This document shows, one piece after another, positions 24,954 through 29,521 of a stretch of DNA of 64,000 nt. The notes under the pieces were generated by a model, which searched no databases, had not been told where the DNA came from, and saw only the letters and a program-made list of their open reading frames with translations. Made by a program: the position numbers and the translations under genes. Source of the stretch: Ornithinimicrobium pekingense DSM 21552 (lineage in GTDB: Bacteria > Actinomycetota > Actinomycetes > Actinomycetales > Dermatophilaceae); contig NZ_ATWJ01000015.1 of NCBI RefSeq assembly GCF_000421185.1, positions 186,001 through 250,000 of the forward strand. The letters are read 5' to 3'. How positions within the stretch are numbered: the stretch's first letter is position 1; every line of letters begins with the position of its first letter.

Positions 24954-25220
24954 GTGGCAAACATCAAGTCCCAGATCAAGCGCGTCAAGACCAACGCCAA
25001 GCGCACCGAGCGCAACCGCGCCCACAAGTCCGAGCTGCGCACCTGGATCCGCAAGTTCCGCGAGGCCGCGGACTCCGGCGACCAGGCGAAGGCTCAGGAC
25101 GCGCTGCAGCTGGCGTCCAAGAAGCTGGACAAGGCCGTCTCCAAGGGCGTCATCCACGCCAACCAGGCGGCCAACAAGAAGTCCGCGATGGCCAAGAAGC
25201 TCAACACCATCGGCGCCTGA
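24954..25220 (+). CDS. rpsT: 30S ribosomal protein S20
   Basis: The 88-aa protein starts [20 protein letters not shown] and ends [16 protein letters not shown], the usual S20 sequence: a lysine-rich three-helix protein that binds 16S rRNA in the 30S body. GTG 24954 is preceded by AGGAAG about nine bases upstream. An 18-bp hairpin follows the stop. Confidence 0.98.
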
Positions 25221-25240
25221 CGCGCCGGCGGCACAGCCTG

Positions 25241-25280
25241 GCACAGGGCGCTCACCCCGCAGGGGGTGGGCGCCCTGTGC
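25241..25280 (+). terminator. 18-bp hairpin after rpsT
   Basis: Bases 25241-25258 pair with 25263-25280 (one G-U wobble) around the loop GCAG. No T tract follows. It separates rpsT from the leuS leader and directly abuts the leuS -10 box. Confidence 0.75.
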
Positions 25281-25282
25281 GC

Positions 25283-25288
25283 TACCAT
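25283..25288 (+). promoter_or_regulatory. -10 element for the leuS leader transcript
   Basis: TACCAT ends ten bases before ATG 25299 of the leader peptide, so the transcript would begin at or just before that codon. No -35 box is recognisable because the rpsT hairpin occupies that region. Confidence 0.5.
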
Positions 25289-25298
25289 CGTCAGAATC

Positions 25299-25340
25299 AT
25301 GACGACCCGTTGCGTGCTCCTCCTTACGCAGCCGCGCTGA
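25299..25340 (+). CDS. leucine-codon leader peptide of leuS
   Basis: A 13-codon frame reads MTTRCVLLLTQPR, with three Leu codons in a row (CTC CTC CTT, 25317-25325). It is followed by an 11-bp hairpin and an intrinsic terminator before leuS. This is the expected build of a translation-dependent attenuator that senses charged leucyl-tRNA. The rare CTT codon among Leu codons may add sensitivity. Too short to confirm by homology; the call rests on codon content and position. Confidence 0.7.
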   Translation: MTTRCVLLLTQPR

Positions 25341-25362
25341 CGACGCACACCCAGCGCGGCTG
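25329..25362 (+). promoter_or_regulatory. leader hairpin of the leuS attenuator
   Basis: A perfect 11-bp stem pairs 25329-25339 with 25352-25362 (loop of 12 bases). Its 5' arm overlaps the end of the leader peptide, so ribosome position controls whether it can form. Confidence 0.65.
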
Positions 25363-25363
25363 A

Positions 25364-25387
25364 CCCCTCTGCCCGAGGGGCTTTTTT
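25364..25387 (+). terminator. intrinsic terminator of the leuS attenuator
   Basis: CCCCTC (25364-25369) pairs with GAGGGG (25375-25380), followed by C and six T residues (25382-25387). It is the only T-tailed terminator noticed in the window and lies 63 bases upstream of the leuS start. Confidence 0.8.
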
Positions 25388-25450
25388 GTGCACCGAACCG
25401 GCCGGACGAAGCACGAACCACGAGCACGAGCAGACGAAGGACGAGGACTG

Positions 25451-28393
25451 ATGAGCGAGCGGATCCCGGAGCACCGCTACACGGCCGCGCTGGCCAACGA
25501 GATCGAGGCGCGCTGGCAGGAGCGATGGGAGGCCGAGGACACCTTCGCCTCGGCCAACCCCGCCGGGCCCTGGGCGGACCCGGACGACCCGCGCCTGGGG
25601 CAGGGCCACCGCTTCATCATGGACATGTTCCCCTACCCCTCGGGGACCGGCCTGCACGTGGGGCACCCCCTGGGGTTCATCGCCACCGACGTCCACGCGC
25701 GCTTCGCCCGCACCACCGGCATGAACGTGCTGCACACCATGGGCTTCGACGCCTTCGGCCTGCCCGCCGAGCAGTACGCCGTGCAGACCGGTCAGCACCC
25801 GCGCGTCACCACCGAGCGCAACATGGAGATCTACCGGGCCCAGCTGCGTCGGCTGGGGATGGGCCACGAGCAGCGCCGCAGCTTCGCCACGATCGACCCC
25901 GGCTACTACCGGTGGACCCAGTGGATCTTCACCCAGATCTTCGAGTCCTGGTATGACGTGGACGCGCCGGCGCGCACCGGCGAGGGCACCGGCCGGGCCC
26001 GGCCGATCCGCGAGCTGGTCGCCCAGTTCGCCTCCGGCGAGCGCGACCTGGACCTGCACGACGACGAGGGGCGGCCGCGCACCTGGGCTGACCTGAGCCC
26101 GGTGGAGCAGGCCGACGTGCTCGACGGCTACCGCCTGGCCTACCTGTCCTCGGCGCCGGTCAACTGGTGCCCCGGCCTGGGCACGGTGCTGTCCAACGAG
26201 GAGGTCACCGCCGACGGACGCTCCGAGCGCGGCAACTTCCCGGTGTTCAAGCGCAACCTGAGTCAGTGGATGATGCGCATCACCGCCTACGCCGACCGGC
26301 TGACCGACGACCTGGACCGGCTGGACTGGCCGGAGAAGGTCAAGCTCATGCAGCGCAACTGGATCGGCCGCTCCGTGGGCGCGACCGTGCGCTTCGACGT
26401 GCCTTCGGCCAGCTCCGGCCACGACGGCACCCTTCCCCTGCACGTGTTCACCACCCGGCCCGACACCCTGTTCGGCGCGACCTTCATGGTGGTGGCCCCC
26501 GAGCACCCGTCGCTGGCCGAGATCGTCCCGGACGCCTGGCCCGAGGGCACCGACCCGCGGTGGACCGACGGCGCACCCGACCCGCGCACCGCGGTGACGG
26601 CATACCAGCGGATGGCCTCGACCAAGAGCGACGTGGAGCGGCAGGCCGACGCCAAGACCAAGACCGGTGTGTTCACCGGTGCCTTCGCCACCAACCCCGT
26701 CGACGGCCGCCAGGTCCCCGTGTTCGTCGCCGACTACGTGCTGATGGGCTACGGCACCGGTGCGATCATGGCCGTCCCGGGCCAGGACCAGCGCGACTGG
26801 GACTTCGCGGTCGCCTACGGGCTGCCGATCATCCGCACCGTGCAGCCGACCGAGGGGCACCCGGAGGACCAGGCCTTCACCGGCGAGGGGCCGGCCGTCA
26901 ACTCCGCCAACGACGAGGTCAGCCTGGACGGGCTCGGCGTCGCCGAGGCCAAGGAGCGGATCATCGCCTGGCTGGTCGAGCGGGGCCTGGGACGCGAGAC
27001 CGTCACCTACCGGCTGCGCGACTGGCTGTTCAGCCGCCAGCGCTACTGGGGCGAGCCCTTCCCGGTCGTCTGGGACGAGGACGGCGTCGCGCACACCGTG
27101 CCCGACGAGATGCTGCCGGTCGAGCTGCCGGACGTGCCGGACTACAGCCCCCGCACCTACGAGCCCGAGGACGCCGACAGCTCGCCGGAGGCGCCGCTGG
27201 CCCGCGCCACCGACTGGGTCGAGGTCGAGCTGGACCTGGGCGACGGCCGCGGCGTGCGGAGGTACCGCCGCGAGACCAACACCATGCCCAACTGGGCCGG
27301 GAGCTGCTGGTACCACCTGCGCTACCTGGACCCCGCCAACGAGGACGCGCTGGTCGACCCGACCGTCGAGCGCTACTGGATCGGCCCGCGCCCTGCCCCG
27401 GTCGCCGGTGCGCCCGCCGGGGCCACCGACCCCGGTGGCGTCGACCTCTACGTCGGCGGCGTGGAGCATGCCGTCCTGCACCTGCTCTACTCCCGGTTCT
27501 GGCACAAGGTCCTTTTCGACCTGGGCTACGTCTCCTCCGAGGAGCCGTTCCGCCGGCTGATCAACCAGGGGATGATCGAGGCCTACGTCTACCGCGACGC
27601 CCGCGGCTTCCCGGTGCCGGCCGCCGAGGTCGAGGAGGTCCCCGACCCCGAGGGCGGTGCGCCCACCTTCACCTGGCAGGGCGAGCCCGTCACCCAGGAG
27701 TACGGGAAGATGGGCAAGTCGCTGAAGAACGTCGTCACCCCCGACGAGATGTGCGAGCAGTACGGTGCCGACACCTTCCGCGTCTACGAGATGTCGATGG
27801 GCCCGCTGGAGCAGTACCGCCCGTGGGAGACCCGCGCGGTCGTCGGCTCGATGCGCTTCCTGCAGCGGCTGTGGCGCAACGTCGTCGACGAGGAGACCGG
27901 TGAGCTGACGGTCACCGACGACCCGATGGACGTCGAGACCGAGAAGGCGCTGCACCGCACGATCGCCGGCGTGCGGGCCGACTACGAGGCGCTGCGGACC
28001 AACACCGCGATCGCCAAGATGATCGAGCTCAACAACCACCTGACCAAGCTGCCGGCCGCGCCGCGTGCCGCGGTGGAGCCGCTGGTGCAGATGGTGGCGC
28101 CGGTCGCCCCGCACGTCGCGGAGGAGCTGTGGTCGCGGCTGGGGCACGAGGGGTCGCTGGCCTGGGCGCCCTTCCCCGAGGCCGACCCGCAGCTGCTGGT
28201 CGAGGACACCGTGACCTGCGTGGTGCAGGTCAGGGGCAAGGTCCGCGACCGGCTGGAGGTGGCCGCCGACGTCGACGAGGCGACGCTGCAGGAGCTGGCG
28301 CTGGCCAGCCCGAAGGTGCAGGCGATCATCGACGGCGCGCCGGTGCGCAAGGTCATCGTCCGGGCCCCCGGCCTGGTCAACATCGTCGTCTGA
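25451..28393 (+). CDS. leuS: leucyl-tRNA synthetase
   Basis: LeuRS charges tRNA-Leu. The 980-aa protein has the class I signature [15 protein letters not shown] near residue 65, the editing domain with [19 protein letters not shown] and the [13 protein letters not shown] region, the zinc-type/leucine-specific inserts, and KMGKS (variant of KMSKS) near residue 753, ending in the small C-terminal domain with [17 protein letters not shown] 25451 has AAGGA nine bases and GAGGA three bases upstream. Expression is probably set by the upstream leader-peptide attenuator. Confidence 0.98.
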
Positions 28394-28406: not shown

Positions 28407-29276
28407 ATGGCTTCCCCGCAGCTGGTCACCGACACCACCGCCTGCCTGCCCGCCGGCACGGCGGAGCGGCTCGGGCTGACCGTCGTCCCGCTGCACGTCA
28501 CCGTCAGCGGCCGCGGCACGGTCAAGGCGCGCGAGATCACCCCGGCGGAGGTCGCCGACATCCTGGGCAGCAGCCGGGCGCGGATGTCGACGTCGCGGCC
28601 CTCGCCGGGGGAGCTCGCCGCGGCCTACCGGGAGGTCACCGGGCGCACGGGCTGCCGCGAGATCGTCTCGGTGCACCTGTCCGGCGCGGTGAGCGGGACG
28701 GTCGAGGCCGCCGAGCTCGCCCGGGACGAGGTCGCCGGCGAGGTCGCGGTCGAGGTCGTGGACTCGCGGGTGCTCGGGCTCGCCCTCGGGTATGCCGTGT
28801 GCGCCGGCGCCGAGGCGGCCGCCCGGGGGGAGGACGCCGAGGCCGTCGCCGGGCTGGTGCGGCGGCACGCCGCGGCCAGCCGCACCTGGTTCTACGTCGA
28901 CACCCTCGAGCACCTGCGCCGCGGCGGACGGATCGGCCGGGCGGCCGCCCTCCTGGGCTCGGCGCTGGCGATCAAGCCGTTGCTGACCCTCCGCGACGGC
29001 GAGGTGCACCCCGAGGAGAAGGTCCGGACCCGGGCCAAGGCGCTCGCACGGCTCGTCGACCGGGCGGCCGGTGCCGTGGAGGAGGCGCGCGAGCAGGGCC
29101 TGGAGGTGCGCCTCGCGGTGCACCAGCTGGCCGCGGCCGAGGCGGCCGCCGACCTGGCCGCGGTGCTGCGTGATCGCACCGGCGTCGACCCCGACGTCAC
29201 CGAGCTCGACCCCGTCGTCGGCGTCCACACCGGTCCGGGCACCCTCGGCGTCGTCGTCGCACCCCAGCCCGGCTGA
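28407..29276 (+). CDS. DegV family protein
   Basis: The 289-aa protein matches DegV/FakB-type fatty-acid-binding proteins: LVTDTTACLPAGTAERLGLTVVPLHV at the N-terminus, MSTSRPSPGELAAAY near residue 52, and VSVHLSGAVSGTVEAAEL near residue 75, with the lipid-contacting Ser/Thr positions. VDTLEHLRRGGRIGRAAAL follows near residue 165. FakB proteins present fatty acids to a FakA kinase, but no such kinase is present here. It lies 13 bases after leuS, so it is likely co-transcribed. Confidence 0.92.
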   Translation: MASPQLVTDTTACLPAGTAERLGLTVVPLHVTVSGRGTVKAREITPAEVADILGSSRARMSTSRPSPGELAAAYREVTGRTGCREIVSVHLSGAVSGTVEAAELARDEVAGEVAVEVVDSRVLGLALGYAVCAGAEAAARGEDAEAVAGLVRRHAAASRTWFYVDTLEHLRRGGRIGRAAALLGSALAIKPLLTLRDGEVHPEEKVRTRAKALARLVDRAAGAVEEAREQGLEVRLAVHQLAAAEAAADLAAVLRDRTGVDPDVTELDPVVGVHTGPGTLGVVVAPQPG

Positions 29277-29310
29277 CCCGCCCTCGGGCGAGCAGCCCGC
29301 ACCCCCGGCC

Positions 29311-29521
29311 GAGGACGTCGCGCGCACGCCCCATCCGTGACCGAGGACGTCGCGCGCACGCCCCATCCGTGACCGAGGACGTCGCGCGCACGCCCCATCC
29401 GTGACCGAGGACGTCGCACGCACGCCTCATCCGTGACCGAGGACGTCGCGCGCACGCCTCATCCGTGACCGAGGACGTCGCACGCACGCCTCATCCGTGA
29501 CCGAGGACGTCGCGCGCACGC
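29311..29521. repeat. 32-bp tandem repeat array, six full units plus one partial
   Basis: Units begin at 29311, 29343, 29375, 29407, 29439, 29471 and 29503 (partial). The unit starts GAGGACGTCG and ends CATCCGTGACC. Units 1-3 are identical. Units 4-6 vary at two positions only: G or A at unit position 12, and C or T at position 21. The repeat contains GACGTC and, in most units, GCGCGC. There are no spacers. It lies between degV and comEA. Confidence 0.95.

Follow-up and report, generated by a model that had tools for sequence, protein, structure and literature searches.

Transcription attenuation is usually explained as a competition of overlapping hairpins. Attenuators of leuS, the gene for leucyl-tRNA synthetase, were predicted in 2005 in Streptomyces coelicolor and S. 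avermitilis, and the available part of that study terms the leuS attenuator classical, with antiterminator and terminator hairpins (PMC1262725). The leuS leader of S. lividans TK24, LeuL2 (MRAVRLLLSEPR), was reported to be leaderless in 2021; in the extract available, transcription starts at the start codon of the leader (PMC8079986). The antiterminator and terminator hairpins of ilvBNC in Corynebacterium glutamicum are described, in the portion of the source at hand, as adjacent and overlapping at a GCC boundary triplet (PMC11857589), and an excerpt of a further paper has the Corynebacterium ilvBNC hairpins pairing alternatively (PMC10272879). Here we analyze the region between rpsT and leuS in a stretch of 64,000 nucleotides (nt) from Ornithinimicrobium pekingense DSM 21552, which is called the window below. 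Judged from its letters and those of its relatives, leuS is almost certainly preceded by a conserved, ribosome-mediated transcription attenuator.

Leader frame and stems before leuS

An earlier note on the window had placed, between rpsT and leuS, an 18-base-pair (bp) hairpin, a TACCAT box, a 13-codon frame, an 11-bp hairpin and a T6-tailed terminator. These elements were confirmed base by base (Table 1). The note had read them as an attenuator that senses leucyl-tRNA through the ribosome, and this reading is supported, as the frame and the codons are conserved and the stems are both conserved and covarying. The window copy has the form of the LeuL2-type leader, with a frame M..LLL..PR-stop before leuS and a TANNNT box 6–10 nt upstream, and an intrinsic terminator lies between the frame and the gene. 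The 11-bp hairpin (hairpin 1) begins at the Gln codon of the frame and folds on its own with −21.5 kcal/mol; the terminator arms lie at 25364–25369 and 25375–25380. The fold of positions 25295–25400 beats 200/200 shuffles (z −3.97). A scan of the 64 kilobases for T-tailed hairpins (6-bp stem without mismatch, 5 or more T within 9) passed two, and a strong hairpin stands directly upstream only at the leuS leader.

The comparison was made on picked representatives of genomes with a LeuS matching that of the window at E ≤ 1e-40, a threshold reached in about half of the searched genomes of the order and the class (72/119 and 63/148). A strict script found the hairpin pair in 88 of 151 leuS upstream regions. 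Two of these (L096 and L138) were judged false on visual inspection and dropped, leaving 86. The script required a T-rich hairpin, so the terminator count in the 86 relatives is by construction, and its ranking of candidates partly used Leu codons.

At least three Leu codons in a row stand ahead of hairpin 1 in 71/86 leaders, compared with 1.9% of shuffled stretches, the best of three frames being used for both. At least two stand just ahead of it in 83/86. CTT serves as the final Leu codon in 82/86 leaders and in all 70 of the named loci described below, and it is rare in the genes of the window (2/215 Leu codons in five genes). The stop codon of the frame lies inside the 5′ arm of hairpin 1 in 74/86 loci, and a TAG lies directly ahead of the arm in 8/86. 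A ribosome that finishes the frame would thus keep hairpin 1 open at these 82 loci. In the eight loci with TAG (L038, L044, L045, L046, L051, L052, L084 and L145), the frame ends three codons early, with the GCCGCG core retained. The core is therefore not kept for the peptide alone.

A TANNNT box lies 4–12 nt before the leader start in 85/86 loci, compared with 6.6% of 2966 background ATG/GTG codons, the former figure being inflated because leader starts were picked with a preference for such a box. The spacing from box to start is 6 nt in 48/86 loci, 7 nt in 14/86 and 10 nt in the window. The earlier note had suggested that the leader is leaderless. That description suits many of the relatives better than it suits the window copy. 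In the window, 10 nt separate the end of the −10 box from the ATG, so that a few untranslated bases probably precede the frame in the transcript, which would then not be strictly leaderless.

The note had proposed aligning relatives for a conserved leader frame and covarying stems, and had named the lack of both in close relatives as evidence against its reading. The start of leuS was located in 30 of the 31 genus genomes; the remaining one, 75% complete, gave a weak match only. All 30 loci have the hairpin pair, and 29/30 have a Leu-containing leader frame; the reading thus withstood this test. One genus copy (L011) has a single Leu codon left in its leader, and another (L030, from a genome 74% complete) retains both hairpins but lacks an intact leader frame. 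In the alignment, hairpin 1 and the terminator have 39 cells that changed on both sides of a pair; column shuffles gave a mean of 15, and slid partners 1–15. Such changes occur in 9/17 pairs, and one slid control (−2) likewise reached 9. Since the script required the core of hairpin 1, the pairing of that core is by construction. The seventh pair, free of this requirement, is C-G in 57/86 loci and T-A in 13/86. The arms pair better with their own partners than with swapped ones (0/10000 permutations of 60 distinct arm pairs, kinship uncontrolled).

Complementarity between CGGAC in the loop of hairpin 1 and GTCCG past the terminator was seen at some loci, for example L055, L071 and L091, and this GTCCG sometimes sits in the loop of a small hairpin. 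Pairing of the loop with bases past the terminator was considered and rejected, as partner swaps gave no excess (p = 0.87 for the 86 loci, 0.38 within the genus and 0.98 outside it), a test that is weak if the motif is universal.

Contact between hairpin 1 and the terminator

With unbroken stems, the strongest upstream stem shares no nucleotide with the terminator in 81/86 loci and one in 5/86. The two are flush in 43/86 and separated by 1–3 nt in 38/86, although the script would have accepted gaps as wide as about 9 nt. The spacing is thus maintained even as the length of the hairpin 1 loop ranges between 7 and 36 nt. Neither a classical antiterminator that shares bases with the terminator nor a three-base shared boundary of the C. 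glutamicum ilvBNC type was found in the 86 leuS leaders with unbroken stems, and the window hairpins lie 1 nt apart. The earlier note had called the two hairpins adjacent rather than overlapping, which is right and general across the 86 loci, and its suspicion of a nonclassical antiterminator logic is upheld by the contact without sharing and by the pairing results that follow.

To model the starved state, we placed a ribosome at the first Leu codon, assumed its edge to lie at 12 nt, and folded the RNA that it does not cover. Hairpin 1 and the terminator then form together, each with a probability above 0.8, in 73/86 loci. A hidden antiterminator, in which the leader, the Leu codons or the loop would pair with either terminator arm, was also sought and rejected, there being no excess over shuffled sequences. 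Leader pairing to the two terminator arms had mean z values of +0.44 and −0.33 over 80 distinct loci; the arm of hairpin 1, as positive control, gave −3.30. The slight tendency for the 3′ arm (the −0.33, with 19% of loci below −1.5) may reflect the pyrimidine-rich Leu codons against GAGGGG.

The trp leaders served as a control of the method. They were found by leader pattern in five of eight Streptomyces-like genomes searched; one of six pattern matches, L305, had no leader-like layout and was excluded, and loci taken through PF04715 gave no TGG runs. In the two loci that were checked, an anthranilate-synthase-like gene follows the leader (the best model is anthranilate synthase component I, scoring under its cut-off with the frame truncated by the locus end). 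The antiterminator overlaps the longest T-tailed stem by 7–11 nt in 5/5 trp leaders. Four of these five genomes are also among the 86, and their leuS stems are flush in three and 2 nt apart in one.

The same layout recurs before genes resembling cimA. We fetched 20 matches of a covariance model built on 56 of the loci: 12 precede leuS by tblastn, seven precede cimA-like genes, and one (L202) ends before the gene at a contig end. Eleven of the 12 leuS genes encode divergent LeuS types, 35–50% identical to that of the window. One genome (G476; L196 and L197) encodes two types of LeuS, with 66% and about 40% identity to that of the window, and each has its own Leu leader. The seven cimA-like matches (L190–L195 and L209) are weaker and precede genes resembling citramalate synthase. 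This identity was assigned through TIGR00977 (NCBIfam) for L192 and through the same conserved stretch in translation for the other six. Their leaders have Ile codons, the frames ending in SLIIS, WMIII or VIIISRRAG before the stop, and their hairpins are flush in 7/7. Among 13 Leu-leader model matches, ten have the hairpins at 0–1 nt and three share 1–2 nt. The control codon thus tracks the gene, with Leu ahead of leuS, including its divergent types, and Ile ahead of cimA. The match for cimA in the genome of the window organism is weak (33%).

The frame, its codons, the two hairpins, their flush contact, the covariation and the distribution are read from the sequences; the promoter, the polarity, the positions of the ribosome and the abutment mechanism we infer as follows. 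Transcription would start just ahead of the leader ATG. With ample leucyl-tRNA, translation would proceed to the stop codon and the ribosome would cover the 5′ arm of hairpin 1, leaving that hairpin unable to form; the terminator would close and transcription would end. When leucyl-tRNA is scarce, the ribosome would stall on the Leu codons and hairpin 1 would form. Its base, touching the base of the terminator, would keep the lowest terminator pairs open within the RNA exit channel, and the last pairs could close only if hairpin 1 entered that channel. Thus leuS would be transcribed when charged leucyl-tRNA is scarce, the species sensed being presumably, by the codon rule, the CUC/CUU-reading isoacceptor. 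With the ribosome at the first Leu codon and the edge assumed above, the core of the hairpin 1 arm is left free in 77/86 loci, most commonly with 2 nt to spare (59/86).

Read-through upon scarcity of leucyl-tRNA is very probable, being the sense expected for a synthetase gene. That hairpin 1 blocks closure of the terminator by abutment, and not by competition for bases, is a tentative proposal that we hold to be possible but on balance doubtful. Taken as a whole, a leuS attenuator with antitermination by abutment is the best explanation we have, with a chance just short of even.

Several observations weigh against it. By itself, the joint folding of both hairpins in the starved models predicts termination in either state. 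With the assumed edge, a ribosome stalled no further than the first Leu codon covers 1–4 nt of the arm core in 9/86 loci. At the commonest spacing, a stall at the third would hide about 4 nt of that core, namely the pairs that touch the terminator, and this is a difficulty for the model because the third Leu codon is the most conserved. The T-runs of the terminator are broken in many relatives. The same test for a TANNNT box gave 0/7 before the cimA leader frames. The three Leu-leader matches with 1–2 shared nt may have a small boundary competition. No precedent for antitermination by a touching hairpin was found in the literature searched.

The best competing view is a classical or near-classical one, in which one or a few boundary bases are contested between hairpin 1 and the terminator, as in C. 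glutamicum ilvBNC. There, published mutational data support such a competition in another actinobacterium, as far as the accessible text goes (PMC11857589). The leuS loci offer some room for it: besides the five loci with one shared nt and the three just mentioned, 28/86 could share 3–4 nt if one mismatch per stem is allowed. Unbroken stems share nothing in the large majority of the 86 and in 70/70 named loci, however, and both the joint folding and the lack of excess pairing to the terminator arms, where the arm of hairpin 1 is strongly positive, argue against it. We consider it unlikely.

No more probable is a role of hairpin 1 as a pause hairpin that awaits the ribosome, or as a helper of the terminator, with ribosome–polymerase contact or timing deciding the outcome. 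A hairpin-stabilized pause site is expected roughly 11 nt past the hairpin. A pyrimidine-G step is found 11 nt past the core of hairpin 1 in 53/86 loci, but this count is without control and other distances are common (44/86 at 15 nt). Contiguous hairpin clusters have been proposed to aid intrinsic termination, in the passage available (PMC8355165); a helper would have the wrong polarity for a synthetase gene, and a pause requires no flush contact with the terminator. Finally, a chance frame between an rpsT terminator and leuS is very improbable: the two hairpins could be tandem terminators of the ribosomal protein gene ahead of them, but the frame, codon identity, stems and spacing are conserved across families, with rpsT upstream or not.

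Distribution and layout of the region

The 86 loci with the hairpin pair comprise 30/30 of the genus, 39/63 of other genera of the family, 4/28 of other families of the order and 13/30 of other orders. The covariance model recovers 48/63 family loci and 24/58 loci of the order and class, a partly circular result as many of them are in the model; 3/51 rows of this search were partial matches on the opposite strand and were excluded from the count. In whole genomes, model matches at E ≤ 0.01 were obtained in 152/296 of the class and 30/198 of the phylum, totals that include the cimA matches and unchecked weak ones; 12 of the 30 phylum matches are members of the class or closer. In a set of named genomes, the best 80 of 583 confirmed relatives and mostly Streptomyces, the leader, hairpin 1 and terminator are present in 70/80 leuS loci; three of the 80 appear to repeat genus loci. 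The exact LeuL2 peptide occurs in 35 of these 70.

Table 1. Features of the rpsT–leuS region, in window positions.
Feature	Position	Strand	Basis
18-bp GC-rich hairpin, directly 3′ of rpsT	25241..25280	+	fold −43.9 kcal/mol including flanks
Predicted −10 box TACCAT, leader promoter	25283..25288	+	TANNNT statistics across loci
Leader frame MTTRCVLLLTQPR, 13 codons and stop (ATG 25299 to TGA 25340)	25299..25340	+	frame conserved in genus
Control codons CTC CTC CTT (Leu)	25317..25325	+	Leu-run enrichment, CTT conservation
Hairpin 1 5′ arm CAGCCGCGCTG, over the Gln-Pro-Arg-stop end of the frame	25329..25339	+	pairing, covariation
Hairpin 1 3′ arm CAGCGCGGCTG, proposed abutting antiterminator	25352..25362	+	pairing, covariation
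Intrinsic terminator CCCCTC-TGCCC-GAGGGG, C, T6	25364..25387	+	begins 1 nt past hairpin 1
leuS, leucyl-tRNA synthetase, gene under predicted control	25451..28393	+	TIGR00396, 872 bits, cut-off 548

The rpsT gene ends at 25220 (TIGR00029, 106 bits). The earlier note had counted the 18-bp hairpin as part of the attenuator. It is probably the end of the rpsT transcript and lies outside the switch, because rpsT is found within 760 nt upstream at just 29/86 attenuator loci and was not found at the other 57. The window is from a high-GC actinobacterium, and the closest named LeuS in the scanned collection is that of Ornithinimicrobium sp. CNJ-824, with 88% identity across 169 residues. No Rfam match reached the curated score in the window; positions 25200–25470 gave seven sub-threshold matches, and T-box is not among them. 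At 29309–29521, downstream of a DegV-family gene (28407–29276), a unit of 32 bases is repeated in tandem, in 6.7 copies with 97% matches.

Comparison with known systems

Attenuation of leuS as such is already known, and the window copy is a new member of the known leuS leaders. In the literature searched, part of which was available in extract, we found neither the flush layout without overlap, here set against a classical control, nor the conserved rare CTT codon, nor the isoleucine version before cimA. The titles in that literature gave no sign of a published cimA leader attenuator. We put forward, as a possibility that we would not call probable, a second actinobacterial attenuator architecture in which an antiterminator without shared bases acts by touch, reused with Leu codons before leuS and Ile codons before cimA, with the trp leaders remaining classical alongside. 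If abutment is true, termination could be decided sterically, through contact at RNA polymerase, and flush but separate hairpins would explain why no switch appears in equilibrium folding. The leuS layout predicts an isoleucine attenuator before cimA, and flush tandem hairpins after a short frame offer a search rule for further cases.

The LEU element before leuA in Actinobacteria, a pseudoknot in which Leu codons pair with the Shine-Dalgarno box in the accessible account (PMC1262725), is alike by description in having a Leu-codon leader. The Streptomyces trp leader resembles the leuS leader in its short frame of cognate codons, its terminator and its occurrence in Streptomyces-like genomes, going by the parts of the sources at hand (PMC1262725, PMC8079986), and differs in the overlap of its antiterminator with the 5′ arm of the terminator in all five leaders. 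The putRNA of HK022, as described in the available text (PMC9378689), is likewise an RNA element that prevents termination with no bases shared with the terminator, whereas the leuS hairpin would work through contact with a single terminator and would be gated by the ribosome. Corynebacterium ilvBNC has, in the extract cited above (PMC11857589), the same short leader and adjacent hairpins; the unbroken leuS stems differ in sharing at most 1 nt in 86/86 loci. The closest relatives are the Streptomyces leuS leaders, insofar as the available descriptions allow. Base sharing, implied there by the term classical, was looked for in our loci and not found. The window copy differs from them in its peptide and its genus, and has in common with them the gene, the three-Leu leader ending in Pro-Arg-stop, the hairpin and the U-rich terminator.
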